The position numbers were made by a program, and so were the translations under genes. 64,000 nucleotides of DNA from Sphingomonas edaphi (GTDB taxonomy: Bacteria; Pseudomonadota; Alphaproteobacteria; Sphingomonadales; Sphingomonadaceae). The notes below the pieces were generated by a model. That model was not told the origin of the DNA, searched no databases, and was given only the letters and a program-made list of their open reading frames with translations. The stretch's first letter is position 1. Each line of letters opens with the position of its first letter. The stretch covers positions 372,001-436,000 of the forward strand of contig NZ_QXTF01000002.1 of assembly GCF_003583725.1 (NCBI RefSeq), written 5' to 3'. Below are positions 1 through 21,440 of this stretch, in pieces.

Positions 1-698
1 GCGAAGAAACTCGCGATGGTCGCCGCGTGCAGCCGCTGGACATGATAGCTTTCAAGGAAGGCGTCGATGATCAGCTTCCAGTTGGCGGCAACATCATGGG
101 TCTTGCGGCGATACAGGTACAGGTCGCCAAGTCCGAACGCGTCGAGATCGTCCTTGAGTGCGATCGCATCGGTAAAATCCGCGCCCTCATCTTTAGCCCA
201 CCAGATCAGGCCGCCCGCCTCGACGCAGGGAAACTCGCGAAGACCGTTCCGGCCCTTGTCGAAATCGGGGAAGCAATCGTTCCGCGGTATGCCGGTAAGC
301 TCGCCGTCCGGCTTGTATGCCCAAGCATGATAGGGGCAAATGATCCGCTTCGCCGGCACGACTTCATGGCTGTCGAGCAACCGCGTACCGCGATGGCGGC
401 ACACATTGGCGAAAACATGGGCTTTCCCGTCAATGTCGCGCGACAGGATCAGTGGCGTTCCATAATCGTCGTGCGCGACGGCTTGGTTGCGGTCGGGCAG
501 CAGGGCCGACGGCCCAAGTAGGTGCGGGACATGATCGAAAATCCGGCGCTTCTCGGTCTCGAATCGTGCCTCGTCCACGTAGACGGATGCGCTTAGCGTT
601 TCGACATGGTCGCCCATGTGAGCCTCGCCCCTCGCTAGCGCCTCGGCCAGTGCACGTTGGCCGGGGGTAGGGCGGCGGGGAGTTACGGGCATGTCCAT
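1..698 (-). CDS. Rieske [2Fe-2S] ring-hydroxylating oxygenase, alpha-subunit type (5' part, runs off the window)
   Basis: The reading frame is open from an ATG at 698 (or 692) to the left edge, giving 232 residues. The Rieske cluster ligands are visible: C100-x-H102 in CRHRG and C121-x2-H124 in CPYHAW. Near residue 206 begins NWKLIIDAF, followed by H219 and H224, the start of the mononuclear iron site of the catalytic domain; the third ligand (Asp) would lie outside. The family uses a separate reductase to hydroxylate or demethylate organic substrates; the substrate cannot be read here. It is divergent from the AmpG-type permease. No strong ribosome-binding site separates the two start candidates. 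A second, different Rieske protein lies at 58260-59429. Confidence 0.88.
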   Translation of the reverse strand, partial: MDMPVTPRRPTPGQRALAEALARGEAHMGDHVETLSASVYVDEARFETEKRRIFDHVPHLLGPSALLPDRNQAVAHDDYGTPLILSRDIDGKAHVFANVCRHRGTRLLDSHEVVPAKRIICPYHAWAYKPDGELTGIPRNDCFPDFDKGRNGLREFPCVEAGGLIWWAKDEGADFTDAIALKDDLDAFGLGDLYLYRRKTHDVAANWKLIIDAFLESYHVQRLHAATIASFF

Positions 699-835
699 CG
701 AACCAATGCTGCGCCAAGTTATTAATCGTTGCAAGGACGAACTGAATTCGTTGAGCATCTGGAGAATAACGCTACCCCTTTCGCGAAACGCCGGTGCTGC
801 TACGCTTGCCCAAACAAGGCGGGGAGAATCCACAA

Positions 836-2221: not shown

Positions 2222-3483
2222 AGCGAGCCGAACACCAGCACGCGCGCGGGCTTGCGAAGCGCAATCAGCGCATCGGAGATGCTGCGCTTCGCAGATGAAA
2301 CAAATCCCATCTTGGCCGCCATGGCTGCAAGATCGGACGGGTCGCGATATTCATGACCTTCAATGGGCAGGGTCAGGATTTGTGAAGCAACTCCGCGAAA
2401 CGGCTGCAGCACCGTCGCAGCGTCCTTGCTGGCCAAGCTTGCGTATAGCAGCACCAAAGGACGCTTATCCGTCCAGTTGCGCCGGGCATGGGCCGCGATC
2501 AGCCGGGAGGCGCTCGGATTATGGCCGCCGTCGATCCAAAGTTCGCTTCCGCGCGGCAGCATCTCGATCAGAGGTCCGCTGTGAAGTTGCTGGAGCCGCG
2601 CGGGCCAATTGGCCCAGCCCATCGCAGCACTGAATGCCGATGCCGGGATGTCGATGGTGTCTTGATGACGAAGCATCGCCACCGCCAGCGCTGCGTTCAT
2701 GCTTTGGTGACGGCCAGGAAGTCGAGGCAGGGGCAAGAAAAGCTGCCCAGCTTCGTCATAATATCGAAGCTGTCCTGACCGCGAAATGGCGTCCCAGTGC
2801 AGGCCTTTCGGTTCCCAGATCGCGCCCGCAGCTCGAGCAACTTGCGCGACCCGTTCGGCCAAGGCCGTTGGATAGCGCTGCGTCACCAGCGGCACACCCC
2901 GTTTGGCGATTCCTGCCTTCTCGTATGCGACATCGACCAAGCGGTTGCCGAGGAATGCCTGATGATCGAGTCCAAGGCTGGCGATGCCGGTGACTAGCGG
3001 GTGTTCGATGACGTTGGTTGCATCAAGCCTCCCGCCTAGTCCGACTTCTAGGATGCAGGCATCGGCCGGAGCCTCGCTAAAGGCGCAAAAGGCGGCCGCA
3101 GTATTCACCTCGAATAGACTACCGCCGATATCCTCGTTGGCGTCGAGCACTTGACCCATCAGTTCGGCAAGCTGCCCGTCGTCGATCAACCTACCGGCGA
3201 TCCGGATGCGCTCGTTGTATCGGACGAGGTGCGGGCTGGTGAAGGCATGGACGCGTTTTCCGGCAGCCTCCAGCGCGGCGCGAAGGAACGCGCAAGTCGA
3301 CCCTTTGCCGTTGGTGCCGGCGACATGGAAAACGGGAGGAAGCCGGTCTTGCGGGCGGCCGAGGCGGTCGAGCAGAGCGGTTATTCGCTCCAATCCAAGC
3401 TGGTCGCGGTCAACATATTGACGGGCCTGTCGGGCGATCAGTGCCGCAATTCGCGGATCCGCCGAGCGGATCACTTCCTTCAT
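2173..3483 (-). CDS. folC: Bifunctional folylpolyglutamate synthase / dihydrofolate synthase
   Basis: A 436-residue Mur-ligase-fold enzyme that adds glutamate to dihydropteroate and to folates (ATP-dependent, cytosolic). The N-terminal P-loop VAGTNGKGSTCAFL, the GLGGRLDATNV signature, TGIASLGLDHQAFLG and the C-terminal LWIDGGHNPSASR segment are all in family order. Length is normal. The start codon overlaps the accD stop (TGATG), so the two are translationally coupled, as is usual in alphaproteobacteria. The 3' end overlaps the convergent permease gene by 49 bases. Confidence 0.95.
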   Translation of the reverse strand: MKEVIRSADPRIAALIARQARQYVDRDQLGLERITALLDRLGRPQDRLPPVFHVAGTNGKGSTCAFLRAALEAAGKRVHAFTSPHLVRYNERIRIAGRLIDDGQLAELMGQVLDANEDIGGSLFEVNTAAAFCAFSEAPADACILEVGLGGRLDATNVIEHPLVTGIASLGLDHQAFLGNRLVDVAYEKAGIAKRGVPLVTQRYPTALAERVAQVARAAGAIWEPKGLHWDAISRSGQLRYYDEAGQLFLPLPRLPGRHQSMNAALAVAMLRHQDTIDIPASAFSAAMGWANWPARLQQLHSGPLIEMLPRGSELWIDGGHNPSASRLIAAHARRNWTDKRPLVLLYASLASKDAATVLQPFRGVASQILTLPIEGHEYRDPSDLAAMAAKMGFVSSAKRSISDALIALRKPARVLVFGSLYLAGEALSLNGSLPD

Positions 3484-4343
3484 CAGGCGGCGGCCTTCGC
3501 TCCGCTCGGGGCAAGGTAGCCGACCAAACGGGCCAACCGGTCCTTGAGCGCGTGACGATGCACGACCATGTCGATCATGCCGTGTTCCAGCAGATATTCG
3601 GCTCGCTGGAAGCCCTCGGGCAGCTTTTCGCGAATGGTCTGCTCGATGACGCGCTGCCCGGCGAACCCGATCAGGGCGCCCGGTTCGGCAATCTGGACAT
3701 CGCCGAGCATGGCGTAGCTTGCAGTAACGCCGCCAGTGGTCGGGTCGGTCAGAACAACAATGTAGGGTAGTCCCGCTTCACGCAACTGCGCCAGCGCCAC
3801 GGTGGTGCGCGGCATCTGCATCAGCGACAAAATGCCTTCCTGCATGCGCGCGCCGCCGGCGGCCGTGAACAGGATATAAGGGCAGCGCTTCTTGATCGCC
3901 TGCTTGACGCCAATAACAAAGGCCGCGCCGACGGCGACACCCATCGAGCCGCCCATAAAAGCGAAATCTTGAACGCCGACCACGGCGAGCTTGCCTTCGA
4001 TCTTGCCGAATGCGTTGATCAGCGCGTCGCGTTCTTCGGTCGAGGAACGGGCGGCCTTGAGGCGATCGGTATAGCGCTTCGTGTCGCGGAATTTCAGCGG
4101 GTCTTCGCGGACCTCGGGACTGTCGAGGATTTCATATTTCTGCCGGTCAAACAGTGCGTCGAAGCGCACTTTCGGTCCGACCCGGTCGTGGTGGTCGCAG
4201 CGCGGGCAAACGTAAAGATTGTCCTCCCATTCCTTGGTAAAGACCATGGATTCGCACTTGCGGCACTTGTGCCACAGATTGTCGGCGCTCTGACGCTTGG
4301 TCAGCGATTGGATGCCGTTGCGAACGCGGCTCAGCCAGCTCAT
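3483..4343 (-). CDS. accD: Acetyl-CoA carboxylase carboxyltransferase subunit beta
   Basis: A 286-residue subunit of the carboxyltransferase that makes malonyl-CoA for fatty-acid synthesis together with AccA. The N-terminal zinc ribbon has two CxxC pairs (CRKC near residue 27 and CPRC near 48). The crotonase-like core carries [17 protein letters not shown] and [17 protein letters not shown], typical of AccD. A GAGAGG site precedes the ATG at 4343. Only 55 bases separate it from pyrF, the place where trpF, trpB and trpA normally lie in related genomes; this gap holds a GC-rich hairpin but no gene. Confidence 0.97.
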
Positions 4344-4398
4344 TCAAACCTCTCGATAATGCGGCGGGCGGGGTAAGCCTCGCCGCCGCCAATGTCCA

Positions 4399-5073
4399 CT
4401 ATAGCGTACCGGCGATTTCCCTTACGGCCACGGCGGGATCGTCGGCGCCGGTGATGGGCCGGCCGATGACGAGGATTGATGCGCCGGCATCGAGTGCGTC
4501 GCGAGGCGTCATGACGCGCTTCTGGTCGCCGATCGCGGTATTGGTGGGCCGAATGCCCGGAACGACGAAAAAGCCATTTTTCCATCGAGCACGCGCCGCA
4601 GCAACTTCATTGCCGGAACAGACTATGCCGTCGAGGCCCGCATCCTTGGCAAGGTCGGTCAAGCGTTCGACCTGTGCCCGGCTGTTCCCGGGAACGCCGA
4701 TGGAAGCCAGGTCGCCGGAATCCAGACTGGTCAACACGGTGACGGCGACGACCTTTGTACCTGCAGGGGCCGCCGCCTTTGCGTCCTCGAGCATCGCTCG
4801 ACCGCCCGCCGCGTGAACCGTCAGCACCGACGGAGTGATCGGCGACAGGGCCTGGATTGCTTTAGCGACCGTATTGGGAATGTCGTGCAGCTTGAGGTCG
4901 AGGAAGAGCGGCAAGTCGAGGTCTGCGAGTTCGAGTACGCCCGCGCGGCCGTTGTGGCAGAAAAACTCCAGTCCAAGCTTCAGTCCGCCAGCATGCCGCT
5001 TGACTGCCTCGGCGACAGCGCGCGCCCGGTCCAGGTCCGGTGTGTCGATGGCGACGTAGATTGGGCTAGTCAT
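4399..5073 (-). CDS. pyrF: Orotidine-5'-phosphate decarboxylase
   Basis: Catalyses OMP to UMP, the last step of de novo pyrimidine synthesis. The 224-residue protein starts MTSPIYVAID and carries the catalytic Lys/Asp segment LDLKLHDIPNTV and the C-terminal phosphate-binding stretch VPGIRP ... LVIGRPIT. The frame is open further upstream to 5262, but homology begins only at the ATG at 5073, which overlaps the lapA stop codon by four bases (ATGA). It is cotranscribed with lapA upstream and probably with accD-folC downstream. Confidence 0.95.
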   Translation of the reverse strand: MTSPIYVAIDTPDLDRARAVAEAVKRHAGGLKLGLEFFCHNGRAGVLELADLDLPLFLDLKLHDIPNTVAKAIQALSPITPSVLTVHAAGGRAMLEDAKAAAPAGTKVVAVTVLTSLDSGDLASIGVPGNSRAQVERLTDLAKDAGLDGIVCSGNEVAAARARWKNGFFVVPGIRPTNTAIGDQKRVMTPRDALDAGASILVIGRPITGADDPAVAVREIAGTL

Positions 5074-5354
5074 GGAAGCGGGGTCTCTTCGACGGGTGTC
5101 TGCGCAGGAGGAGCCGCAACTGGCGGACGTTCTGCGATGACAAGGCGCCGCCGGACGGTCCACAACTTGCCCCGCAAGATGAAAAAGGGCGGCAGGAAAC
5201 CCAGCAGGAAAATGATCAGCAGTAGTACCGGCAATTTGATGTCGGCCTGAAGGTTGCCCCACAGGTTCACCGACACATCGCTCCAGTTCCGGCTCGCAAA
5301 TATGGCGAGGGAAACAGCGATCACCACCCAGAAAAGCGTTCGCAAGAAATGCAT
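5070..5354 (-). CDS. LapA-domain inner-membrane protein
   Basis: A 94-residue protein with an N-terminal transmembrane segment (WVVIAVSLAIFASRNW), the NLWGNLQADIKLPVLLLIIFLLGFLPPF core with a second membrane segment, and a short basic then proline-rich cytoplasmic tail. This is the pattern of the lipopolysaccharide assembly protein A (LapA/DUF1049) family, linked in enterobacteria to envelope lipid balance. GGGGAG sits just upstream of ATG 5354. It overlaps pyrF by ATGA, so it leads the pyrF-accD-folC transcription unit. Confidence 0.82.
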   Translation of the reverse strand: MHFLRTLFWVVIAVSLAIFASRNWSDVSVNLWGNLQADIKLPVLLLIIFLLGFLPPFFILRGKLWTVRRRLVIAERPPVAAPPAQTPVEETPLP

Positions 5355-5509
5355 CGTGACTCCCCGGCTGAAGCCTTTAGGCGACCATGAGGCTGCTGGC
5401 CAGTCGTTCGCCGCTTCCCAGCATCGTCTCGCCGCAGGGAGATTCTGAGGGGAGTTGAGCGTTTCACTGTCTAGCGCCACACCAGCTGAAGGGGAGGCCG
5501 CGTTTTCCG

Positions 5510-6817
5510 TTGGATCGTAAATATAAACTAGGGATCGGCGCGTTTGCGTTGGGGCTCGGCGCATTCGCGCTCGCACAGCCATTTGTTGAAACGAAAAAGG
5601 CCTCGCCGTCAGCGATCCAGGCCGCTCAGGCCAAGTCAATCGCGCAGGCGAGCGCACGGCTTGCTGTCGTCGAACCGGCCAGCCGAAGTCGTATCGATTA
5701 CAAGCGCCTTGATGAGCGTTTGCAGCGCATGGTCGAGAAACCCACGATGGTCGGCATGGCGGTCGGCATCGTCGAGAACGGCCGCATCACCTTTCTGAAC
5801 GGCTATGGCGAAACGCTCGAAGGATCGGGCGAAAAGGTTACGCCCGAAACCGTCTTCCGCTGGGCGTCAGTATCGAAAGGCGTCGCCGCCACGATGGTCG
5901 CCAAGCTGGAAGAAAAGGGCAAGCTGCGCTTCGATCAGTCGGTCGCGTCCGTCGCGCCCTCGCTCCATTTGCCGGGCGGCAACGAACTGACTGCGACGGT
6001 CGGCGACGTTCTCAGCCATCGGCTGGGCTTGTACCGCAATGCTTTCGACAACAAGCTGGAAGAAGGACAGGACGCGTCATTCCTCCGCGCGTCGCTGGTG
6101 ACCCTCAACAGCATTTGTCCGCCGGGAACCTGCTGGAGCTATCAGAACGTTGCCTATGACGCGGCAAGCGAAATGGCCACGAAGGTGACCGGCGTAAGCT
6201 ACCCGGACCTTGTCCAGCGCGAACTGTTTGCGCCGCTGGGAATGACTTCTGCGTCGATGGACCGCAATGGGCTGGTGAGTGCACCTAGCTGGGCAAGGCC
6301 GCACAGTGTCGGTCGCCGACCGCTGGAAGTGAACGATAACTATTACCGCGTCCCAGCTGCGGGTGGCGTGAACAGTAACATCAAGGACATGTCACTGTGG
6401 ATGCTGGCTCAGCTGGGCCAGATGCCCCAAGTGCTAAGCCCGAAGCTTTTGGAGACTATACACGCGGCGCGCGTAAAGACGCCCGGCGAGCGAGGCCGGA
6501 TGCGCAAATTTTTGGAGCGACTGGGTCAGGCTGACTACGGATATGGGTGGCGCAGCTATGAATATGCCGGTCATCACATCATCGGCCATCGCGGCGGCGT
6601 TGCCGGGTACCGGTCACTGATCTTGTTTGACCCCAAGTTGAAGAGTGGCGTTGTCGCGCTGTGGAACAGCAACACGTCGCAGCCGGGGGGCTTGGAGTTC
6701 GAAGTGATGGACATGCTCTACGGCCTTGAATTCCGGGACTGGATGGAAATCGACAAGGGCGGACCGGCCAAAGCTAACCAAGTCGCCGTCAAGCGTGACC
6801 GTAACCGTTCTGCCTGA
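5510..6817 (+). CDS. Serine hydrolase of the beta-lactamase / penicillin-binding-protein fold (class C type)
   Basis: A 435-residue exported or membrane-anchored protein with a hydrophobic N-terminal segment (LGIGAFALGLGAFALAQP). The three active-site motifs of the family are present: S120-V-S-K123 (nucleophile motif), Y211-Q-N213 (equivalent of YxN) and HRGG near residue 363 (in place of KTG). Members are esterases, D-amino-acid peptidases or beta-lactamase-like proteins; the substrate is not readable. Translation probably starts at TTG 5510, with GGGGAGG at 5490-5496; the next in-frame ATG would remove the signal segment. Confidence 0.85.
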   Translation: MDRKYKLGIGAFALGLGAFALAQPFVETKKASPSAIQAAQAKSIAQASARLAVVEPASRSRIDYKRLDERLQRMVEKPTMVGMAVGIVENGRITFLNGYGETLEGSGEKVTPETVFRWASVSKGVAATMVAKLEEKGKLRFDQSVASVAPSLHLPGGNELTATVGDVLSHRLGLYRNAFDNKLEEGQDASFLRASLVTLNSICPPGTCWSYQNVAYDAASEMATKVTGVSYPDLVQRELFAPLGMTSASMDRNGLVSAPSWARPHSVGRRPLEVNDNYYRVPAAGGVNSNIKDMSLWMLAQLGQMPQVLSPKLLETIHAARVKTPGERGRMRKFLERLGQADYGYGWRSYEYAGHHIIGHRGGVAGYRSLILFDPKLKSGVVALWNSNTSQPGGLEFEVMDMLYGLEFRDWMEIDKGGPAKANQVAVKRDRNRSA

Positions 6818-6889
6818 CCTACGTCGTTATTTTGTGCTATATGATCCGTGGGCCGCGGCTCGCGCCGCGGCGGAGCCTAGGGCAAAGAC

Positions 6890-7066
6890 ATGGAACCGCA
6901 AAGCGATCGCGCCTTTCACTTGGAGCGCGCCAAACAGTGCCGCTCGATGGCCAGCGAATCCAGCGACCCGGTCGTTCGTCGACTGCACGAAGAACTTGCT
7001 GAGTTTCATGAGCTAGAGGCCGAACGAGGCGAGCTCGAGGTCCCAATGAACCAGGAGCCGGCCTGA
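6890..7066 (+). CDS. Small conserved-looking protein of 58 residues, function unknown
   Basis: An intact ATG-to-TGA frame just downstream of the serine hydrolase gene. The product is highly charged: it opens MEPQSDRAFHLERAKQCRSM and has a probable amphipathic helix VVRRLHEELAEFHELEAERGE. GC-rich third codon positions support coding. The start-proximal pattern resembles short unnamed proteins I associate with sphingomonads, but I cannot name a family. It precedes the hemerythrin gene and its stress promoter. Confidence 0.62.
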   Translation: MEPQSDRAFHLERAKQCRSMASESSDPVVRRLHEELAEFHELEAERGELEVPMNQEPA

Positions 7067-7105
7067 CCGGACCCACATGTTTGAGTTGCGTTGCGCTCTC
7101 GCTGC

Positions 7106-7131
7106 GGAACATCGGCGTACCGACCGATGTT
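7106..7131 (+). promoter_or_regulatory. EcfG-type general-stress promoter of the hemerythrin gene
   Basis: The -35 element GGAAC (7106-7110), a 17-base spacer and TGTT (7128-7131) fit the alphaproteobacterial EcfG consensus GGAAC-N16/17-CGTT. It lies 34 bases before the hemerythrin ATG. The same bases contain an inverted repeat, AACATCGG/CCGATGTT. Confidence 0.6.
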
Positions 7132-7164
7132 TTACCGAACGCACGCAAATGAAAGGCTTCAAAG

Positions 7165-7677
7165 ATGGCAGACGCCGAGAAATTGGACGCAGTTGCGCTC
7201 CTCAAAAAGGACCATCGCACAGTCGAAGAGCTGTTTGAACAGTTCGAAAAAGCGAGTGGCGACGGACGCAAGCGCAAGCTAGCCGAGCAAATTTGCCTCG
7301 AACTTTCGGTTCACGCACAGATCGAGGAAGAAATTTTCTATCCAGCCTGCCAAGGGAAGGTTGAGGAAGATCTGCTAAAAGAAAGCTACGTCGAGCACGA
7401 TGGCGCAAAGGTGCTGATCGCCGAAATCATGACTGGCGGGCCGGACGACGAATATTACGACAGCAAGGTCAAGGTGCTTAGCGAGCAAATTGAGCATCAT
7501 GTCGAAGAGGAAGAGAAGCGAATGGAAGGACTTTTCTCCCAAGCCCGCAAGGCTGGCCTCGATATGGACGCGCTCGGCGAGCAGTTGGCGGCGCGTAAGG
7601 CCGAACTCACGACACAGTTCGAGAAAAACGGAATACCGAAGCCGACGCTGACTACGATGGAAGCGGCCAGCGTCTGA
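7165..7677 (+). CDS. Hemerythrin HHE cation-binding domain protein
   Basis: A 170-residue cytosolic protein of the bacterial hemerythrin-like group, which binds a di-iron centre and is linked to oxygen, NO or oxidative-stress handling. Ligand-type residues appear in order: H in KKDHRTVEELF, the pair in LSVHAQIEEEIFYPA, H in YVEHDGAKVLI and the HHVEEEEKRM segment. The C-terminal part is a charged helix. It is monocistronic, with an EcfG-type promoter upstream and a hairpin terminator downstream, which points to general-stress control. Confidence 0.88.
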   Translation: MADAEKLDAVALLKKDHRTVEELFEQFEKASGDGRKRKLAEQICLELSVHAQIEEEIFYPACQGKVEEDLLKESYVEHDGAKVLIAEIMTGGPDDEYYDSKVKVLSEQIEHHVEEEEKRMEGLFSQARKAGLDMDALGEQLAARKAELTTQFEKNGIPKPTLTTMEAASV

Positions 7678-7698
7678 TTTTTTGTGCTTATCTTTATC

Positions 7699-7733
7699 GG
7701 CCGTTCCGTGACACTGCGGGACGGCCTGATTTC
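7699..7733. terminator. Hairpin terminator between convergent genes
   Basis: GGCCGTTCC (7699-7707) pairs with GGGACGGCC (7718-7726) around a 10-base loop and is followed by a T-containing run. It lies just after the hemerythrin stop codon. The 95 bases from here to the helicase stop codon show no further feature. Confidence 0.55.
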
Positions 7734-7822
7734 ATTGGGGAGCGCCCGTCGCTCGAGGCGCGCGAGGGTGGAGCCGCCCACCGGCAAGGAGAGCCGACAT
7801 CCGCTAAGGCTTACGCGGCTCG

Positions 7823-10123
7823 CTAATTTGATGTGCTAACGAAGCTGTCGAGAACGCGCTTTCGGCCAGCTTTCTCGAATTCGATTTCCAGCTTGTTGCC
7901 TTCGATCTCGGCGATCGTGCCATAGCCGAACTTTCCGTGGAAGACGCGCTGCCCAACACTCAGGTCATCGCGCCCCTTATTGCCCAACGACACCGCACTG
8001 GCACGGGCTTCGATTATCCGCTGCGGCTGAGCGTTGAAACGGCCCTGAGCGCGTTGCCAGCCGGCACCACGCGTGCTGGCCCGATCACTTTGCGCGGCGG
8101 CCAGATGGGCGAACGGGTCGCCTCGCTCGCTCCACTGCGCACGCCACATGCTTTCCCCCCCGCTCATCGTAGTTTCCTCATCGATATGCTCTTTGGGAAG
8201 CTCGCTCACAAACCGGCTGGGAATCGAACTCGTCCATTGTCCGTAGATGCGCCGGTTGGCTGCATGGATGATGATAGCTTTCGCGCGTGCGCGGGTCAGG
8301 GCGACGTAGGCGAGGCGGCGCTCTTCCTCGAGGCTGGCTAGTCCCCCCTCGTCGAGCGCGCGCTGCGATGGGAAAACGCCTTCTTCCCAGCCCGCGAGGA
8401 AGACGTTCGGAAATTCCAGACCCTTGGCGGCATGAATAGTCATGATCGTGACCTTCTCGCCCTGCTTCGCCTGGTCGTTGTCCATGACGAGGCTGACATG
8501 CTCGAGAAATGCGCCGAGCGTTTCATATTCTTCCATCGCCCGCGTTAGTTCGGTGAGGTTCTCGAGTCGGCCTGTGGCTTCGGCGCTTCGTTCATTCTGA
8601 AGAGCGGCCGTGTACCCGCTTTCGTCGAGCAGGATTCGCGCCAGTTCCGGATGGGGGATCTCGCCGGCCATGGTTCGCCAGCGAGCGACGTCGGCAACAA
8701 ACCGGCCGAGACTGCGCCGCGCTTGCGGAGTGAGTTCGTCGCTGTCGAGCATCTGCGCGGCGGCAAGCAAAAGCGGCTGGTCAGTCGCCCGCGCAAATTT
8801 GTGGATGTTCGCAACAGCCTTGTCGCCCAGCCCGCGCTTGGGCGTATTGATGATGCGTTCGAACGCGAGGTCGTCGGCCGGCTGCGCGACAAGCCTAAGG
8901 TAGGCGAGCGCGTCACGGATTTCAGCGCGCTCGTAGAAGCGAAAGCCGCCGACGATCTGGTAGGCGAGGCCGATGGCGATGAACCGCTCTTCAAATTCGC
9001 GGGTTTGGAACTGTGCCCGCACGAGGATCGCGCAATCGTCGAGTGACCCGCCCCGTGCCTGATGGGCCTCGATCTCCTCGCCGACGCGGCGAGCCTCCTC
9101 CGGTCCGTCCCAGACGCCGATCACCCGAACTCGGTCGCCCTCGTTGCGCTCGGTCCAGAGGGTTTTACCGAGCCGGCCGGCGTTGTTGGCGATCAGCCCG
9201 GTTGCGGCGCCCAGAATATGCGGCGTGGAACGGTAATTTTGCTCAAGCCGGATCACCGCCGCGCCCGGGAAGTCTTTCTCGAAGCGAAGGATGTTGGCCA
9301 CCTCCGCTCCCCGCCAACTGTAGATCGACTGGTCGTCGTCGCCAACGACGCAGATGTTCTGGCGCGGCTCTGCCAGCAAACGCAGCCATTCGTATTGGCT
9401 GGCATTGGTGTCCTGATACTCGTCGACCAGGATATAGCGGAACCGCTCGCGATAGCTTTCGAGTACGTCGGGATGCGCCTTGAGGATGGTCAGCATGTGT
9501 AGCAGCAGGTCACCGAAGTCGCAGGCGTTCAACGCCCGAAGCCGGTCTTGGTAGGCGGCATAGAGTTCCTGCCCGCGACCGTTGGCGAAAGCCTCCGACT
9601 CCGCGGCGTCGATATGTGCGGGCGTCCAGCCCCGATTCTTCCAGCGATCGATGACACCGGCAAATTGCCGCGCCGGCCAGCGCTTTTCGTCCAAGTTTGA
9701 GGCGACGATAAGTTGCTTTAGCAAGCGGAGCTGGTCGTCGGTGTCGAGGATGGTGAAGTTGCTCTGCAGTCCGGCCAACTCGGCATGGGCACGAAGCATC
9801 TTGGCCGCAACACTGTGGAAGGTGCCGAGCCACGGCATCCCCTCGATTGCCCCGCCGCTGATTGCCGAGACTCGCTCTTTCATTTCCCGAGCGGCCTTGT
9901 TGGTGAACGTCACCGCCAAAATCTGGCTAGGCCAGGCTTTGCGCGTTGCGATGATGTGAGCGAGCCGCGCAGTGAGCGCTGCTGTTTTTCCCGTGCCTGC
10001 GCCTGCAAGCATCAGGACCGGACCCTCGGTCGTGAGCACGGCCTCGCGCTGCGGCGCATTCAGGCCGCGCAGGTATGGCGCATCGGCGGTTGGTTCGGTG
10101 CAATGGTTGGAAGATTCGGACAC
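7823..10123 (-). CDS. UvrD/PcrA-family ATP-dependent DNA helicase (SF1)
   Basis: A 766-residue 3'-5' helicase of DNA repair. Visible motifs: Q-motif LNAPQREAV, Walker A LAGAGTGKTAAL, Ia TFTNKAAREMKERV, II ILVDEYQDTN, III VGDDDQSIYSWRGA, IV EQNYRS, V TIHAAKGLEFPNVFLAGWEEG and VI EERRLAYVALTRARA, with a C-terminal Tudor-like end (FGYGTIAEIEGNKLEIEF). I place the start at GTG 10123 (VSESSN..), where similarity to the family begins. The frame is open to a GTG at 10270, but that would add 49 unlike residues covering a DnaA-box-like site. Confidence 0.93.
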   Translation of the reverse strand: MSESSNHCTEPTADAPYLRGLNAPQREAVLTTEGPVLMLAGAGTGKTAALTARLAHIIATRKAWPSQILAVTFTNKAAREMKERVSAISGGAIEGMPWLGTFHSVAAKMLRAHAELAGLQSNFTILDTDDQLRLLKQLIVASNLDEKRWPARQFAGVIDRWKNRGWTPAHIDAAESEAFANGRGQELYAAYQDRLRALNACDFGDLLLHMLTILKAHPDVLESYRERFRYILVDEYQDTNASQYEWLRLLAEPRQNICVVGDDDQSIYSWRGAEVANILRFEKDFPGAAVIRLEQNYRSTPHILGAATGLIANNAGRLGKTLWTERNEGDRVRVIGVWDGPEEARRVGEEIEAHQARGGSLDDCAILVRAQFQTREFEERFIAIGLAYQIVGGFRFYERAEIRDALAYLRLVAQPADDLAFERIINTPKRGLGDKAVANIHKFARATDQPLLLAAAQMLDSDELTPQARRSLGRFVADVARWRTMAGEIPHPELARILLDESGYTAALQNERSAEATGRLENLTELTRAMEEYETLGAFLEHVSLVMDNDQAKQGEKVTIMTIHAAKGLEFPNVFLAGWEEGVFPSQRALDEGGLASLEEERRLAYVALTRARAKAIIIHAANRRIYGQWTSSIPSRFVSELPKEHIDEETTMSGGESMWRAQWSERGDPFAHLAAAQSDRASTRGAGWQRAQGRFNAQPQRIIEARASAVSLGNKGRDDLSVGQRVFHGKFGYGTIAEIEGNKLEIEFEKAGRKRVLDSFVSTSN

Positions 10124-10262
10124 TGTCCGCAGGTAGGCAGGCGCGAACGAAACGGCAACCTTCGGGCTTGCAGCGAGCGATAATTCGGCTACAGCGCGCC
10201 GCGAATCGCGAACTTGGGTGGAATCCCGCTGCGATACTTTCGACTTATTCGCGATATCCCCG

Positions 10263-10271
10263 TTATCCACA
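10263..10271 (+). promoter_or_regulatory. Perfect DnaA-box match
   Basis: TTATCCACA matches the DnaA consensus exactly. It stands alone between the helicase start and the putative structured RNA, and a TTGACT -35-like hexamer follows at 10276-10281. A single box may regulate a promoter rather than mark an origin. Confidence 0.35.
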
Positions 10272-10319
10272 GGCTTTGACTCGATTTTTTCGCTTTCGCG
10301 ACTCGGAAAAGTGAGTCAG

Positions 10320-10700
10320 GTTACAAGGGTGATCGGGACGGAAGTCCCCGCCTCTCGAAAGAGCGGCAGGTGGCAGAAGGACCGATCTCCACCGGACGGC
10401 GATGAGGAGGGCTTCGGCCCAAGTCGGACCACCGGAAGAGGCGCCGGAAGAGTTGGTTTTCCAGTCGCAGTTCGCGGCTCCCTCTGGGGGCAGGCGACGC
10501 GAAGGGACCAACCCAAGAAGGGCCGCAGAAGATGAAGAACCTGCCTCCGGGCAGGACCATCATCGGAAGCGACGCCTGAGCTGGTGAGCCAGGATCGAAG
10601 AGCGGAGGACCCTCGGGTCATCAAGCTAGCGAACACCGGCAGATCTATGTCTCGGCGCAGATGGGGGCTGGCAGCAATGCCGGCCCCCATTTCTCTATGC
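10320..10700 (+). ncRNA. Putative structured non-coding RNA, family unknown
   Basis: No convincing protein frame covers this stretch, but it is full of perfect tetraloop hairpins. GGGAC-GGAA-GTCCC is at 10335-10348, GGGC-TTCG-GCCC at 10409-10420, and CCTGCC-TCCG-GGCAGG at 10540-10555, closed further by GATGA/TCATC (10531-10535/10560-10564). A long-range helix GTTGGT/ACCAAC (10452-10457/10507-10512) encloses GTCGC/GCGAC and GCTCCC/GGGGGC. It ends in a 13-bp terminator stem. I looked for RNase P, tmRNA, SRP RNA and cobalamin-riboswitch signatures and found none. The plus strand is favoured by the terminator and by TTGACT at 10276. Ends are approximate. Confidence 0.5.
10661..10696 (+). terminator. 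Strong intrinsic terminator of the putative RNA
   Basis: A 13-bp stem (10661-10673 with 10678-10690, one G-T pair) closed by a GCAA tetraloop is followed by TTTCTCT. It ends the structured region. Confidence 0.7.
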
Positions 10701-10892
10701 GCGACGCTTCATGCGCCATGATTTTGCCTTGCAGTCCGCGCCGCTTGTTGGCGGGCTGCGCACGTCATTGTGATGGCGAGGAGATGCGTCCGGTGCGTAT
10801 CCGCCTGGTGGCTATCGCGGCCCTTCCCGCTTCCGCCAGCGTTCCCGCTTTACCCCGGCAAGTCCGGCTGAGGCGGCCTTCGCTTTGATCGT

Positions 10893-11048
10893 ACGTCGCG
10901 CGACCGGGCCTTCGGCGAGCGGCTGAAACCCGAAGGCTCGATCAGATTCCACGGCAAGCATCTGTCCTATGTCGGTTGGTGGGAGGAAGGGTCTGCGCTT
11001 TCTGTGCATGAGGCGCTAAAGCTGCGTCATTTCATGGCCGCGGAATGA
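10893..11048 (+). pseudogene. Start-less coding remnant of about 51 residues
   Basis: From a TGA at 10871 the frame reads RFDRTSRDRAFGERLKPEG.. through HGKHLSYVGWWEEG to HEALKLRHFMAAE and TGA at 11046-11048. Third positions are GC-rich as in real genes here, yet there is no ATG, GTG or TTG start before the conserved-looking part; ACG at 10893 sits where a start might have been. It may be the tail of a decayed or frameshifted gene. Bases 10701-10892 hold only short frames with no recognisable product. Confidence 0.3.
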
Positions 11049-11084
11049 AAAGCCGCCGCCTGAACGAACAGCGAGGGGTGGGCT

Positions 11085-11474
11085 ATGTTCGAACGGTTGG
11101 CATCGCGGGTAGCGGCGGCGGCGGGGCGGCCGATGGCATTCGCCCTGGCTCTCTCGATCATCATCGTCTGGGGGTTTTCGGGTCCAGTCTTCGGCTGGTC
11201 TGACACGTGGCAGCTGGTCATCAACACGGGGACTACCATTGTCACCTTCCTCATGGTCTTCCTGATCCAGAACGCGCAGAATCGCGACGCCTCGGCAATT
11301 CAGGCGAAGCTGGACGAACTGATCCGCGCCGTTGACCGGGCTCGCAACGAATTCATCGGCATCGAACATCTGACCGAACTGGAGCTGAGAGAGATACGTG
11401 AGGTCCTGGAAAGAGATGCGGGCGATGAACCCGCCCGCCACGAAGCTATTCTGCGGCTGATCGCGCGACGCTGA
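11085..11474 (+). CDS. Low-affinity iron permease family small membrane protein
   Basis: A 129-residue protein. Two membrane segments (about residues 17-35 and 42-60) are joined by FGWSDTWQLVINTGTTIVTFLMVFLIQNAQNRD, the hallmark of the PF04120 family named after yeast Fet4. A charged helical tail follows (KLDELIRAVDRARNEFIGIEHLTELELREIREVLE). Bacterial members lack proof of iron transport, so the function is only suggested by the family name. A hairpin follows at 11490. Confidence 0.8.
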   Translation: MFERLASRVAAAAGRPMAFALALSIIIVWGFSGPVFGWSDTWQLVINTGTTIVTFLMVFLIQNAQNRDASAIQAKLDELIRAVDRARNEFIGIEHLTELELREIREVLERDAGDEPARHEAILRLIARR

Positions 11475-11489
11475 GGAACGGGGAAATGA

Positions 11490-11515
11490 GGCGGCGGCGC
11501 TGGCCAGCCGCCGCC
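11490..11515 (+). terminator. GC-rich hairpin after the iron-permease-family gene
   Basis: GGCGGCGGC (11490-11498) pairs perfectly with GCCGCCGCC (11507-11515) around an 8-base loop. No T-run follows, so termination efficiency is uncertain. Confidence 0.4.
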
Positions 11516-11685
11516 CCAATGCCTGTCGGGAACGATCGAACGACAGACAACGAGCTATAAACGCACGGCCCGCACAAGCGATGCGCGGCTTGGCTCATTT
11601 CCTTGGCATTTGGTCGACTACAGCAGCCACTGGCGCGAGACGGGCGCCGGCGATAAGCCTGCTGCCAAGGAGCGGAGGCTAAACC

Positions 11686-11721
11686 ATGAGGAACGTCACG
11701 ATTACGCGAGGCCTCCGATGA
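11686..11721 (+). CDS. 11-codon leader peptide overlapping the symporter start
   Basis: ATG at 11686 follows a strong Shine-Dalgarno stretch, AGGAGCGGAGG (about 11668-11678). It encodes MRNVTITRGLR and stops at TGA 11719-11721, overlapping the symporter ATG at 11718 as ATGA. The symporter start has only a weak site of its own, so ribosomes probably reach it by reinitiation or coupling. Whether the leader senses anything is unknown. Confidence 0.45.
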   Translation: MRNVTITRGLR

Positions 11722-12971
11722 CGCCTAAGGCGCAGCGTTCGACCTGGTTGGTGCTGGGCGCATTGCTTGTCGGTCTGTTGTTGGGCGCGCTGGCGACCCA
11801 GGCGGGCGATGGCGTTCGCGAGCCCATGGTGAGGGTTGCATCCACCATCGGTGGATTGTGGCTCGACGCGCTTAAGATGACGGTCATCCCGTTGATAATC
11901 GCGTTGCTCATCACGGGAATCGTTTCCGGAGCCGATCACGCGCGGGCGGGCGGCATCGCCCGGCGGTCGATCCTGTGGTTCGTCGTCCTGCTGACCGCAT
12001 CGGCGGTCTTCGGCGCGTTCGCGATGCCCGCACTTTTGAATGCCTTTCCGCTTCCCGCTGAGGCCGCCGAAGCGTTGCGCGCAGGCCTTGCAAGCGTTGA
12101 TAGCAAGGCGACCGCCGCATCCGTGCCCACGGTGCAGGATTGGCTGAAGAGCGTCGTTCCGACAAATCCCATCGCCGCTGCGGCGAACGACCAAGTGCTG
12201 GCGCTGGTCGTGTTCACCGCGATCTTCGCTTTTGCGGTGACCCGCATCGAAGGAGAGGGACGCCTCGCGATCGCCCGGTTTTTCAAGGGAGTTCAGGACG
12301 CGATGCTTATCGTCGTCGGCTGGGTGCTTTGGCTGGCGCCGATCGGTGTCCTGGGCCTGGCCTTTGCCGTGGGCGCTGGTGCAGGAGGCGCCGCATTCGG
12401 CGCGGTGCTTCACTATGTCGTCATGGTCTCCATCGTCGGCATCATCGTCATGCTGGCGGGATATGCCATCGCCGTGCTGTTCGGCCGATGGAAACTGGGC
12501 GAGTTCGCTCGCGCGATGATTCCGCCGCAGGCCGTCGCCATCTCGACCCAGTCGAGCCTGGCGTCGCTTCCCGCCATGCTCGAGGCGTCACGTCGGCTGG
12601 GATTGCCGCAGCGCAACGCCGATGTCAGCCTGCCGCTCGCAGTTGCCCTATTTCGCGCCACGGGACCGGCGATGAACATCGCCGTCGCGATTTATGTGGC
12701 TTATTGGATGGGCATCGATCTCAACGCGGGTAACCTGATCGCGGGCATCGCGGTGGCATCCGTCGCCAGCTATTGGGCGGTGAGCCTGCCAGGCGCCCTA
12801 TCGTTCGTGACTTCAATCGCCCCGATCGCGCTGGCCATGGGCATCCCGATTGAGCCTCTGGCGCTGCTGATTGCTGTCGAGGTCATTCCCGACATCTTCC
12901 GAACGCTGGGCAATGTTACGCTGGATGTCGCGGTGTCCGGGGCTGCTGCCCGGGGCGAACGCGACGACTGA
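11718..12971 (+). CDS. Dicarboxylate/amino-acid:cation symporter (DAACS family)
   Basis: An inner-membrane transporter of 417 residues that takes up C4-dicarboxylates or acidic/neutral amino acids with Na+ or H+. Seen: about eight hydrophobic segments, TVIPLIIALLITGIVSGADHA, the serine-rich re-entrant loop AISTQSSLASLPAML and the substrate/cation-site segment FRATGPAMNIAVAIYVAYWMG, which replaces the usual NMDGT-type motif. I start it at MTPKAQRS (11718), where the hydrophobic core begins, and not at the in-frame ATG at 11610, because ATG 11718 is coupled to the leader peptide. It is convergent with the LytTR/kinase pair. Confidence 0.87.
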   Translation: MTPKAQRSTWLVLGALLVGLLLGALATQAGDGVREPMVRVASTIGGLWLDALKMTVIPLIIALLITGIVSGADHARAGGIARRSILWFVVLLTASAVFGAFAMPALLNAFPLPAEAAEALRAGLASVDSKATAASVPTVQDWLKSVVPTNPIAAAANDQVLALVVFTAIFAFAVTRIEGEGRLAIARFFKGVQDAMLIVVGWVLWLAPIGVLGLAFAVGAGAGGAAFGAVLHYVVMVSIVGIIVMLAGYAIAVLFGRWKLGEFARAMIPPQAVAISTQSSLASLPAMLEASRRLGLPQRNADVSLPLAVALFRATGPAMNIAVAIYVAYWMGIDLNAGNLIAGIAVASVASYWAVSLPGALSFVTSIAPIALAMGIPIEPLALLIAVEVIPDIFRTLGNVTLDVAVSGAAARGERDD

Positions 12972-13078
12972 TCGGCCGTTTGTCGAACCTGACGGCAGCT
13001 TGTCCGCCGTTTGTCGCTATTTGCCTTCGCTGGTCGAGTGGTGGGTGAAAAGCTGCCGCACATGCGCTGATATCGGGG

Positions 13079-13130
13079 TGCGGCGCGAAACGGGGAGAAC
13101 CCCTGACACCCGACCCGTTTTCGCGCCGCA
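13079..13130. terminator. Long inverted repeat between convergent genes
   Basis: The left arm TGCGGCGCGAAACGGG (13079-13094) pairs with the right arm at 13114-13130 with one bulged base; the loop is 19 bases. It lies between the symporter and response-regulator stop codons. There is no clear T-run, so a bidirectional terminator is likely but not certain. Confidence 0.45.
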
Positions 13131-13145
13131 ACCGACGTGTTGGAA

Positions 13146-13904
13146 TTATCGGCCGGCGATGGCTCGGACCTGGTCGGCGTAAAGTCGACCGACGGGCTGC
13201 TCCTCGCCATCGCCAAGTCGCGCGATCCAACGGCCGGAGGCATTGCGGGAGAAACCGGCAATGAAGTCACGACGCACGATGGCCGATCGATGCAAGCGGA
13301 CGAAAAGCTCGGGATCTAGCCCCTCTTCCAGTGCAGTCATCGAATGATGAATCAGCCAGCTGCGCTTGCCGACGTGCAGGCGCATGTAATCGCGCTCGGC
13401 TGTCACACGGTCGATGTCGCGAGCGGCAATACGCACAAGCCCGGACAAGTCCGATGCCCAGAATTCTTCAAGCCAAGGCGAGCCGGCAGCGGGCCGCTCC
13501 GCGATGGCCTGTTCCTGCCCGCGGCCCTCCACATAAGCCCGCGCACGCTCGATGGCCCGGCCAAGGCGATCGGCGTCGACAGGCTTCATCAAATAATCGA
13601 TGGCAGCCACGTCGAAAGCGGCGACGGCAAACTGGTCGAACGCGGTCACGAAGACGACAGCGGGCGATGTTTCCTGCCGCGATAACGCTCGCGCAACTTC
13701 AATGCCGTCTAGGCCGGGCATGGCGATGTCGAGAAGGACAAGGTCGGGGCTCAGCGCCTCCGCCATGCGCACCGCGCTTTCGCCGTCGTGCGCCGTGCCC
13801 ACCAAATGAACGCCGCCGATCTTGGCCAGCATCATTTGGAGACGCTCAGCCGCCAATGGCTCATCGTCAGCGATCAAAATCTTCAGATCAGTCGCATCAG
13901 TCAT
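13146..13904 (-). CDS. LytTR-family two-component response regulator
   Basis: A 252-residue cytosolic regulator. The receiver domain (residues 8-120) has the acidic pair DDEP near 14, the phospho-acceptor in LVLLDIAMPGLDG and the conserved Lys in YLMKPVDADRL. The C-terminal LytTR DNA-binding domain (about 150-250) has IDRVTAERDYMRLHVG and LFVRLHRSAIVRRDFI. It overlaps the kinase gene by eight bases, so the two form a pair. Target genes are unknown; the convergent symporter is a possible one. Confidence 0.93.
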   Translation of the reverse strand: MTDATDLKILIADDEPLAAERLQMMLAKIGGVHLVGTAHDGESAVRMAEALSPDLVLLDIAMPGLDGIEVARALSRQETSPAVVFVTAFDQFAVAAFDVAAIDYLMKPVDADRLGRAIERARAYVEGRGQEQAIAERPAAGSPWLEEFWASDLSGLVRIAARDIDRVTAERDYMRLHVGKRSWLIHHSMTALEEGLDPELFVRLHRSAIVRRDFIAGFSRNASGRWIARLGDGEEQPVGRLYADQVRAIAGR

Positions 13905-15120
13905 CTTCGTCGCCTACGGGAAGTGCTAGTGAAACTTCGTAGCCGCCAGGGATCGGGCCAAAGCGGCAGTCGGCACGATTGCCGAAATGTGCCTCCAGGC
14001 GCTGGCAGACATTAGCCAGCCCAACGCCCGTGCCTTCGTGGGTCGGCCAGGTGATCTTCTTCGCAGCACCCACTATGCGGTTGGCGATGTCCAGTTGCAT
14101 CCTGCCGCCGTCAAGGCGCCTCGCGCGGATGGTGATTTCGACTTTCGACGTGCTCGTCGAAACGCCATATTTGATCGCGTTCTCAACAATCGGCTGCAGG
14201 ATGAGCGCGGGTACGCGCGCCTCTTTCAGGTCGTCGGGAATGTCGATCGTAACGTGCAGTCGATCCGGAAAACGGACTTTCTCGATGTCGAGATAAAGCC
14301 GCTGAAGCGAGATTTCCTCGGCAAGACTGACGTCGGCAGACGGGTCGATCGATAGGCTCGTGCGGAAGAAAGTCGACAATGCCATCAACATTTCTTCGGC
14401 CCGGTCGGACCGTCCCGACATCACCAGCGAAGACAAGCTATTCAGCGTATTGAACAGGAAATGCGGATTGACCTGGTACCGAAGCGCTCGCACCTGCGCG
14501 GCATGGGCGGCGGTCTCCGCTTCAGCGAGGCGGATTTCGGTCAACCGCGTGCGCCGCTGCTGGGTCATGGCGATAAAGAAGGCGCACCAGGCGGCGAGCA
14601 GGAAGTACCAGGTGACGGTTCCATCCGCGATTAATCGCGGCATTTTCGAAGCGATCATCTCCTCGACGGGCGGCAGGTTCACCTCAAGCTCGTTGCCGTC
14701 TTCCTTGACGATGCGGACATTGTTGCCCCGTTGGACAATGGCCACTCCTTCCTGCGTCGTGATCCTGGACGGCGGCCCCATCGGATCCGACATGGTCGCC
14801 ATCCGCAGGCTCATGGCCGACATGATGACGGCGGCTGGCAGGGAAGCGAACGCAGCAACAAAAGCCATTTTTCGGATGCTGCCGTCCTGCGCCAGCAGCC
14901 GAATCGCGGCATAGATGAGGAAAGTAAGGACGAGTCCCAGTCCCGCATTGACGGCGCGAAAACCGATGGCCTCCGCCGCTTCCGGGCCGAACAGGCCGCG
15001 CAGAAGCACGGTGACGAGGTAAAACGACCAGAAGCCGATGATCGACTGGGTTGCCAACCGCCAGTCTGAAAATCGGCCCTCGGATGAAAACAGCGAATTT
15101 TTGGCCATCACCGCCGTCAT
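13897..15120 (-). CDS. LytS-type membrane sensor histidine kinase
   Basis: A 407-residue kinase with about four N-terminal membrane segments (residues 20-115), a short periplasmic/linker region, a further membrane segment near 175 and the His_kinase domain. The phospho-histidine motif is YQVNPHFLFNTLNSL, the N box is PIVENAIKYGV and the G box is GTGVGLANVCQRLE. It partners the LytTR regulator immediately downstream. Its ligand is unknown. The ATG at 15120 could be replaced by the internal ATG four codons later. Confidence 0.92.
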   Translation of the reverse strand: MTAVMAKNSLFSSEGRFSDWRLATQSIIGFWSFYLVTVLLRGLFGPEAAEAIGFRAVNAGLGLVLTFLIYAAIRLLAQDGSIRKMAFVAAFASLPAAVIMSAMSLRMATMSDPMGPPSRITTQEGVAIVQRGNNVRIVKEDGNELEVNLPPVEEMIASKMPRLIADGTVTWYFLLAAWCAFFIAMTQQRRTRLTEIRLAEAETAAHAAQVRALRYQVNPHFLFNTLNSLSSLVMSGRSDRAEEMLMALSTFFRTSLSIDPSADVSLAEEISLQRLYLDIEKVRFPDRLHVTIDIPDDLKEARVPALILQPIVENAIKYGVSTSTSKVEITIRARRLDGGRMQLDIANRIVGAAKKITWPTHEGTGVGLANVCQRLEAHFGNRADCRFGPIPGGYEVSLALPVGDEDD

Positions 15121-15211
15121 TAAGGATAGATGGCGGCGAAGGACAATTGCTCGTTTGTCCGTTGGCAGACGCTTGGTGACGCCCGGTCGAAGAAATCGCG
15201 GGCGGACCCGA

Positions 15212-15236
15212 GGAACGCGTCCTCACGGCGGTCGTT
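15212..15236 (+). promoter_or_regulatory. EcfG-type general-stress promoter
   Basis: GGAAC (15212-15216), a 16-base spacer and CGTT (15233-15236) form an exact match to the EcfG consensus, 38 bases before the ATG of the 70-residue protein gene. Confidence 0.65.
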
Positions 15237-15273
15237 CTGCAGGAAGAGACTGCATGAACGGAAAGACTTTTTC

Positions 15274-15486
15274 ATGACCCACCATAAACCAGGCAATGAC
15301 GATCATCCTGCCGTCCAGTCGGCCGACCCCGACCGCGAACTTGAACTTAAGGTAAAGAAAAATCCGCAGGACCAGGATGCCAAGGTCGATCTTGGCAGCG
15401 ACGAATCGATGGATGCGTCCGATCCGAGTTCGGCTACGCAGCCGGGATCGTCTGAACCCGCGCCGTCTTCGGGTTTTCCCGAATAA
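15274..15486 (+). CDS. Small acidic, probably disordered stress protein (70 residues)
   Basis: The product opens MTHHKPGNDDHPAVQSADPD, followed by KVKKNPQDQDAKVDLGSDESMDASDPSS and a proline/serine-rich end (SSEPAPSSGFPE). It is rich in Asp, Ser and Pro with no hydrophobic core, so it is likely unstructured. The sequence pattern is one I associate with unnamed sphingomonad proteins. The perfect EcfG-type promoter upstream suggests general-stress induction. A seven-codon frame (ATG 15253) ends on this ATG; GGAAAG at 15260 could serve it directly. Confidence 0.65.
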   Translation: MTHHKPGNDDHPAVQSADPDRELELKVKKNPQDQDAKVDLGSDESMDASDPSSATQPGSSEPAPSSGFPE

Positions 15487-15701
15487 CTGTACCGCCGCCG
15501 ACAATCTCCGGACGGCGCGGCGGCGTAATACATCGTGCCCTTAAAAACACAGCCGCCAATAAGTTGCTGTGGATATTTCACTTTCATGTTGCGGCCACGA
15601 CTCCCCTCTGATTCAATCCTGAATGGGGGGTGGGAAATTGGTTAAGCGATTGGAAACCGATTCAGTCGCATCATCCCACCAGAGCTGAAGGAGTGGGATC
15701 G

Positions 15702-16253
15702 ATGACGACGAGGACGAGCCAGCCCGCAGGTGGTGCTCTCCTGATTTCGGAAATGAAGGAATTCGCTTCGTTCCCGAAAGCGACGCAGCGCTACATTCGT
15801 CGTTCGCTCGACGTGGCCTATGGCAGATCGAACCCGATGGAAACGTGGGCCCGCGACGAGATTGAGGCAGCCGCCATCGCCGCGCAGGGGCGGTTTTACA
15901 AGCAGCTCGATCATCTCCGCCTACAAATTCCTGACGACAGCGGTCTCGACATGATCGAACCGTTCCTCGGCATGCTGGTGACGCTTGCGGCGTTCGATCT
16001 TGGCCAGGACCGGGTGCAGAATTTTGCATCCTTTCGCTTCCTCTACGAACGGTTGCTGGGTGCGTCAGTACGTCCCTGGCTTCCGGCTGCTTTCTGCGCA
16101 GCGGCGGCATTGCCGCACCTTCATCCGGACCGGCGCCGGATGCTTCTGCAGTCGATCAGCGAAAGTGCGGCAACGGCGCCGGGCTGGTCGTCGCGGGAGT
16201 CGGTGTTCTGGCCGGAATGGGTTGAAAAAGTAGATCAGGCAGCTGCCGCCTAA
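15702..16253 (+). CDS. Hypothetical protein, 183 residues
   Basis: Begins MTTRTSQPAGGALLISEMKE at ATG 15702, preceded by AGGAG; the frame extends upstream to 15630 but without a ribosome site. The body is mostly predicted helical (KATQRYIRRSLDVAYGRS, WARDEIEAAAIAAQGRFYKQLDHLRLQ), with no signal peptide and no motif that I recognise. It may be cytosolic. It ends five bases before the convergent HAD gene. Confidence 0.7.
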   Translation: MTTRTSQPAGGALLISEMKEFASFPKATQRYIRRSLDVAYGRSNPMETWARDEIEAAAIAAQGRFYKQLDHLRLQIPDDSGLDMIEPFLGMLVTLAAFDLGQDRVQNFASFRFLYERLLGASVRPWLPAAFCAAAALPHLHPDRRRMLLQSISESAATAPGWSSRESVFWPEWVEKVDQAAAA

Positions 16254-21058: not shown

Positions 21059-21084
21059 GCGCTGCACCGCATTTTGTCAATCAC

Positions 21085-21113: not shown

Positions 21114-21119
21114 GGGGGC

Positions 21120-21395: not shown

Positions 21396-21440
21396 CGCGG
21401 TCGGACCCCACCGGGCAACAGAAGGGGATTCCAGCGGCTT

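Follow-up and report, generated by a model that had tools for sequence, protein, structure and literature searches.

A structured non-coding RNA of about 365 nt is encoded at 10329..10693 on the plus strand of the window (the whole 64,000-nucleotide stretch of Sphingomonas edaphi DNA that was analysed). As far as the searches reported below show, it belongs to a real RNA family of the Sphingomonadaceae that is absent from Rfam 15 and carries a cell-cycle-type promoter. On the evidence of this promoter, the RNA may act in trans within the DnaA/CcrM-GcrA cell-cycle regulon, probably as the scaffold of a ribonucleoprotein (RNP), a reading to which a probability of roughly 0.6 was assigned. A role in the cell cycle is suggested because the promoter shares a rare box with replication and cell-division genes.

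Position, anatomy and folding of the RNA gene

The gene was recognised by its fold, its homologues and covariation, and its ends were placed by anatomy. The folding energy was -177.7 kcal/mol (z -3.98), with none of 100 dinucleotide shuffles folding equally well, and the RNA is present as a single copy in its own genome (2.37 Mb). All the features listed by the sequence-only reading, from hairpins and tetraloops to long-range helices and the terminator stem, were recovered in place.

All elements lie on the plus strand. The 5' domain (10331..10387) is closed by the helix GATCGG (10331-10336)/CCGATC (10382-10387) and provides little covariation evidence because its sequence is nearly invariant. 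It is followed by a conserved core motif of invariant or near-invariant columns, AGAGGCGCCGGAAGAG (10437..10452), and by an arm supported by covariation (10452..10512), in which GTTGGT (10452-10457) pairs with ACCAAC (10507-10512) around the inner helix TCGC (10465-10468)/GCGA (10499-10502). Next to it lies a further core motif of the same degree of conservation, CCCAAGAAGGGCCGC (10512..10526). The variable arm GATGA (10531-10535)/TCATC (10560-10564) spans 10531..10564, and longer relatives carry additional sequence and hairpins inserted in this interval, between core motifs two and three. The 3' domain (10565..10658) comprises GGAAGCGACGCCTGAG, an almost invariant closing helix (10574-10580/10651-10658) and GAACACCGGCAGATC (10631-10645), and the gene ends with an intrinsic terminator, TGGGGGCTGGCA-GCAA-TGCCGGCCCCCA followed by TTTCT (10662..10693). 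The core segments AGGCGCCGGAAGAG, CCCAAGAAGGGCCGC and GCGACGCCTGAG give no covariation signal because they scarcely vary. Two pairings that were plausible in the window, the CTGG/CCAG hairpin (10581-10592) and a CCGG/CCGG pairing between core motifs, were rejected, both being lost in relatives when these were inspected by eye. At one locus (L005), a second, imperfect copy of the terminator hairpin was seen directly behind the RNA terminator.

Coding potential and known RNA families

Comparison with five close homologues, which share 85-92% of the aligned bases, revealed 36 indels, 35 of which were not multiples of three, and no Pfam family was found for the four open reading frames spanning the RNA stretch. 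A protein gene on either strand was rejected on this indel pattern together with the lack of a Pfam match, in agreement with the earlier view that the stretch holds no credible protein frame.

The Rfam search that had been proposed as a check was negative throughout: with Rfam 15 at curated cut-offs, the entire window gave no family at the RNA stretch, a close-up with permissive filters returned a single chance match (12.2 bits to a human lncRNA model with a cut-off of 50), and the loci of 20 relatives gave no match at cut-off. The RNA had been described as distinct from RNase P RNA, tmRNA and 6S RNA, and matches to all three were indeed located elsewhere. The sole RF00010 (RNase P) match in the genome lies at G000:C1:251389-251773 (292.5 bits), the sole RF00013 (6S) match lies elsewhere in the same genome and scores 47.3 bits, above its cut-off, and the RF01849 match was found at 21081-21432 of the window, apart from the RNA. 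The latter is an ordinary permuted tmRNA of the alphaproteobacterial type, encoded on the plus strand (217.1 bits; ARAGORN tag ANDNEALAIAA). With no Rfam match, no conserved protein frame and the covariation described below, the suggestion that this may be a new sphingomonad RNA is supported.

Structured bacterial non-coding RNA is a known kind of molecule; the family itself and its DnaA-regulon link were not found in print. Neither a description of the RNA nor its tie to a DnaA regulon was found in the open literature, a body of text lying outside most subscription papers and bioRxiv preprints and including parts of PMC8959179, PMC7064620, PMC6970203, PMC7566282 and PMC13414033.

Covariation and length in relatives

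Covariation was assessed in a block alignment of 38 of 43 loci (L004, L033, L037, L049 and L053 were left out). In these 38 loci, the long-range helix GTTGGT/ACCAAC that had been predicted from the window showed changes on both sides at all six pairs, with 55 such cells and 94.7% of cells paired. For the whole arm including its inner helix, ten of ten pairs were doubly changed, giving 64 cells against 20.2 in shuffles that leave the kinship among the sequences in place (0/500 as high). When the partner strand was slid, at most 19 doubly changed cells were obtained against the 64 observed, in a control that retains kinship but is biased towards a structure derived from these very sequences, most strongly in the share of paired cells. 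The terminator stem was doubly changed at three of its 14 pairs, in up to 11 of 30 sequences. Taken together, the 3' domain and terminator had seven of 30 pairs doubly changed (27 cells versus 4.3; seven pairs were reached by 2 of 500 shuffles), and 98.2% of the cells in the whole 3' structure were paired. Of the helices proposed earlier, GTTGGT/ACCAAC and the terminator stem are conserved in relatives with covariation. The pairing GATGA/TCATC, previously taken for a long-range helix, is a local one found in the short-form clade. It is replaced in a compensatory manner by AATCG/CGATT in L002 and by GGTCG/CGATC in L003, whereas L004, L042 and L043 are ambiguous (all judged by eye). In a separate alignment of the RNAs found near argG, covariation was also seen (7 pairs, 12 cells versus 4.7 in shuffles), whereas the 13 pair types of this alignment did not exceed the 14.3 of the shuffles. 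Comparison among relatives shows that the RNA structure is under selection.

The length of the RNA ranged from 363 (L043) to 726 nt (L024) among 37 same-genus loci, with values for L005, L016, L019 and L027 that are overestimated (terminator ends set a few dozen bases too far), which leaves both extremes as they stand; L051, the sole row from another genus, has a misplaced 5' end and a wrong length. Over all relatives, lengths of roughly 320-750 nt were obtained, compared with 365 nt here.

Distribution among genomes

Of 61 genomes searched by BLASTN, 30, the organism's own among them, contained homologues; the rate was 30/37 in the same genus and 0/24 in other families of the order. Two covariance models were used for wider searches, R1 being built on the 3' domain and R2 on 11 loci downstream of argG. 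Of 296 genomes sampled from the order, 23 matched R1 at 55 bits or more, comprising 21 of the 22 listed from the same genus and two other genera, and R2 added 77 further genomes at 64 bits or more, so that strong matches to either model were obtained in 100/296 sampled genomes. Among the matches listed for R1 and R2, every genome falls within the window's family. Looser tallies (162/296 for R1 at E <=0.01, 152/296 for R2 at E <=0.001) contain false matches, and the strong ones alone were counted.

A set of 40 further or weaker model matches was fetched, 39 of them to R1 (including a strong one in the same-genus genome G013 and a weak one in G002) and one, L191, a weak match to R2. A DnaA box was present at the expected place in 33 of the 40. 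The other seven (L070, L080, L185, L187, L188, L190 and L191) lack a DnaA box and resemble plain terminators, which is the reason for regarding the looser tallies as including false matches. G002 is the one listed same-genus genome with no strong R1 match, and no RNA was found in it because its weak match, L080, is among these probable plain terminators. With the RNA as query, no match was found in 72,556 plasmid records.

A common origin of the same-genus and argG-type RNAs is likely on the strength of the promoter, the ends and shared positions; it is not proven, because the RNA interior could not be aligned between the subtypes. R2 matches the window's own locus with an E value of 4.7e-7, part of the score being supplied by the shared terminator. 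The subtypes are further tied together because some genera that give no strong R2 match (L076, L077, L180, L181, L186 and L189) nevertheless keep the RNA near argG.

Gene neighbourhood

Pfam confirmed the neighbours named earlier, a UvrD helicase and a low-affinity iron permease. The uvrD gene (7823..10270, minus strand; PF00580/PF13361) stands head to head with the RNA, as a neighbour outside the RNA gene, and the permease gene (PF04120) begins about 390 bp past the RNA terminator. A uvrD gene was found in 28/30 same-genus loci, in 19 of which the protein aligns from residue 23-60 onward only, and the true uvrD start may lie around 10120, which is downstream of the GTG listed. A separate set of UvrD homologues comprised at least 80 loci, of which L082-L087, L095 and L140 were scanned for the motifs. 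At 89 distinct places, argG was near the RNA in 33 (on its strand), uvrD in 30 (on the opposite strand) and neither in 26, five of the last group being weak matches that resemble plain terminators. Comparison of these places shows the RNA gene adjoining different genes in different lineages, and it is read as trans-acting because it is found in such differing neighbourhoods. A replication origin at the RNA was rejected: from 1 to 16000, each of the eight 2-kb steps has a positive GC skew, so no origin switch is located there. The hemE region, with many GANTC sites, lies on a separate contig of the draft genome.

Promoter architecture

Upstream of the RNA, on the plus strand, lies TTATCCACA (10263..10271), which matches the DnaA box consensus exactly, 66 nt before the RNA start. 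A possible second, weak DnaA-like box, GATATCCCC (10253..10261), precedes it, and a similar string was seen by eye in most same-genus rows. From the promoter rows, a -35 element was inferred at CTTTCG (10293..10298; CTTTGC or CTTG in relatives), and a -10 element, placed relative to the start, at CAGGTT (10317..10322; CATAAA, CATATT or CAGCTT in relatives). A GANTC site, GACTC (10300..10304), is located just past the inferred -35 element, and an additional GACTC lies at 10278-10282. GANTC is the CcrM site (PMC8959179, in part). GcrA is encoded in the organism's own genome, and CcrM-like proteins are present in three relatives.

Boxes were scored as TTATCCACA or its inverse with at most one mismatch, 300-850 nt upstream of the terminator, with an equal length downstream as control. 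They were found in 40/41 same-genus loci (control 0/41) and at 50/59 other places (control 1/40), the misses in the latter count being L196 and L197 (strong R2 matches whose boxes have at least two mismatches) and the seven probable false matches. The short locus L010 was left out of this count, L069/L209, L072/L208, L073/L207 and L075/L210 are four places that were each counted once, and L026 and L027, nearly identical but from two genomes, were both counted. GANTC, counted 15-65 nt after the box with a control 150 nt further on, was present in 34/40 same-genus loci (control 0/40) and at 34/50 other places (control 3/50), and absent in 6/40 and 16/50, respectively. With rows L051, L053, L054 and L081 left out, the box lay 66-67 nt before the start in 29/30 same-genus loci (none in L020) and 56-58 nt before it in 15/19 other loci. 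As comparison shows, a DnaA box, usually with GANTC, has persisted at nearly fixed spacing in the presumptive promoter region. A box held at a nearly constant distance from the promoter and conserved across lineages is what membership of a DnaA regulon predicts of the sequence.

Exact boxes at other genes

The exact box occurs five times in the 2.37-Mb genome and a reversed control pattern eight times; the total number of boxes is uninformative because the control is the commoner of the two. The five lie in the RNA promoter, beside hemE, 74 bp before dnaB, before an mraZ-like reading frame and before a cytosine methylase. The hemE box region has 11 GANTC sites within 3 kb; hemE with an exact box and GANTC fits an alphaproteobacterial oriC, and this place is likely to be oriC. 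In Caulobacter, hemE is found at the replication origin (PMC8959179, in part). The MraZ reading frame scored 74.0 bits against an NCBIfam cut-off of 162. The fifth box (L215, G000:C1:447554) precedes a Dcm-type cytosine methylase; a neighbouring reading frame there resembles a ParA-type ATPase (by eye), and the region is possibly mobile.

Six relatives contained 31 exact boxes, and the loci of 30 were examined. Sixteen of these 30, with gene classes judged after the list was viewed and some loci assigned by eye, adjoin the RNA (3), mraZ (3), ccrM (3), ftsZ (2) and, once each, hemE, dnaB, dnaE, parE and parC; MraZ, ParE, ParC and CcrM are below the NCBIfam cut-offs for the named family, and ParE and ParC are clipped by the locus end. 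MraZ belongs to the division operon. The remaining 14 include two CckA-like kinases, a PhoR-like kinase, malate dehydrogenase, mnmA, an integrase-like gene and other genes, some of these boxes having been assigned to no gene. At L228 and L229 (same-genus genomes G024 and G025), the exact box adjoins the gene of a PAS histidine kinase that partly resembles CckA models, the scores of 75.8 and 167.1 bits being far below the cut-off of 1000 bits. The exact boxes at CcrM-like genes (L226, L237 and L247) come from three genomes of two other genera and suggest direct control of the methyltransferase CcrM by DnaA. In Caulobacter, ccrM is activated by CtrA (PMC8959179, in part). The genes with exact boxes (ccrM, ftsZ, mraZ, dnaB, dnaE, parC, parE and hemE) constitute a candidate DnaA regulon for the family.

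Proposed role and alternative explanations

In the mechanism proposed here, the RNA would be transcribed from its own sigma-70-like promoter and end at a strong intrinsic terminator, a first step that the anatomy of the gene supports. DnaA would make this transcription coincide with replication initiation and the early S phase, and in lineages with GANTC a CcrM/GcrA methylation switch would add to the timing. The RNA would thus be expressed together with dnaB, dnaE, parC/parE, ftsZ, ccrM and the mraZ operon, each of which has an exact box beside it in at least one genome of the family. DnaA could also repress or titrate at the RNA promoter instead of activating it. The steps that follow are the least certain: we infer that the purine-rich, invariant segments either bind a protein or build the core of the RNA and that the tetraloop-capped arms, which grow and shrink, serve as spacers, and the resulting RNP would act in trans on the cell cycle. 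Somewhat more doubtful than trans action as such, and put forward tentatively, is the idea of this uncatalogued large RNA as a core part of the Sphingomonadaceae cell cycle: DnaA and methylation would restrict its synthesis to once in each cycle, and its RNP would help couple replication initiation to division.

The main rival reading, unlikely yet deserving serious weight, is a large but ordinary regulatory sRNA that pairs with mRNAs under the same promoter timing, its arms being scaffold and its single-stranded purine-rich segments seeds. Such an sRNA might well have a single copy per genome, its own terminator and conserved segments, as seen here, and the Caulobacter RNA CcnA is proposed to interact with the ctrA and gcrA leaders (PMC8959179, in part). 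CcnA, however, measures 182 nt, and the invariant segments of the present RNA are dispersed over several domains, unlike a short seed region, in a molecule whose length varies twofold. Less probable still is the possibility that the DnaA boxes function on the DNA, as a titration or timing site, while the RNA serves an unrelated task, for example in stress or translation. The position of the box is almost fixed while the interior of the RNA diverges past alignment, which would suit a DNA site; its nearly constant distance from the inferred promoter and start is rather that of a regulator, and the RNA keeps its boxes in differing neighbourhoods.

Two other explanations are very improbable. A cis-acting leader or 3' element of uvrD, argG or the iron permease could draw on the frequent head-to-head uvrD in the genus and on argG on the same strand at 33 places, but the RNA diverges from uvrD, terminates well before the permease gene and has its own conserved promoter-like region with other neighbours elsewhere; its own terminator and changing neighbours (downstream genes were viewed in few loci) do not describe a cis leader or riboswitch. 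A GGA-rich sponge of the CsrB/RsmZ type would account for the excess of GGA (1000 versus 859.8 expected) and GGAA (390 versus 243.4) in 52 extracted sequences, several of them short, overlong or misplaced (e.g. L008, L022, L051 and L054), but is unlikely because CsrA (PF02599) was not found in the organism's own genome by a search that finds it in 3/14 control genomes.

If the trans-acting, DnaA-timed reading is true, the cell cycle of alphaproteobacteria is predicted to include an RNA layer. Large structured bacterial RNAs whose job is unassigned are few, and this one is spread over many genera of a common environmental family, with a promoter that points to DnaA-timed expression as testable biology. 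To our knowledge, it would be the first large structured RNA inside a DnaA regulon.

Comparison with known systems

OLE, ROOL and GOLLD are in Rfam and occur in other lineages, and they differ from the present RNA, for which no Rfam family reached cut-off. Like it, they are large and structured and come from bacteria, and their functions are known in part at most; OLE likewise has conserved segments inside an intricate structure (PMC9723947 and PMC12286853, both in part). 6S RNA (RF00013) is also a free-standing structured RNA but has a separate copy in the genome, and RNase P RNA (RF00010), which is of similar size with several helices, has a separate genomic locus. Zymomonas mobilis is in the same bacterial family as the window's organism. 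Its transcripts Zms3, Zms4 and Zms6, of about 280-390 nt by their coordinates, are alike in size, the comparison being one of length and not of sequence (PMC7064620 and PMC6970203, both in part).

There is also a likeness in biology to CcnA of Caulobacter crescentus, a non-coding RNA of the Alphaproteobacteria that is linked to the DnaA-GcrA-CcrM-CtrA circuit and whose gene contains three weak DnaA boxes (PMC8959179, in part). By the same partial account, mRNA leaders are the proposed targets of CcnA, which is located at the origin and has CtrA boxes. The RNA described here is two to four times longer, lies away from the inferred oriC and is set apart from CcnA by description; whereas CcnA base-pairs, it would affect the cell cycle by another route.
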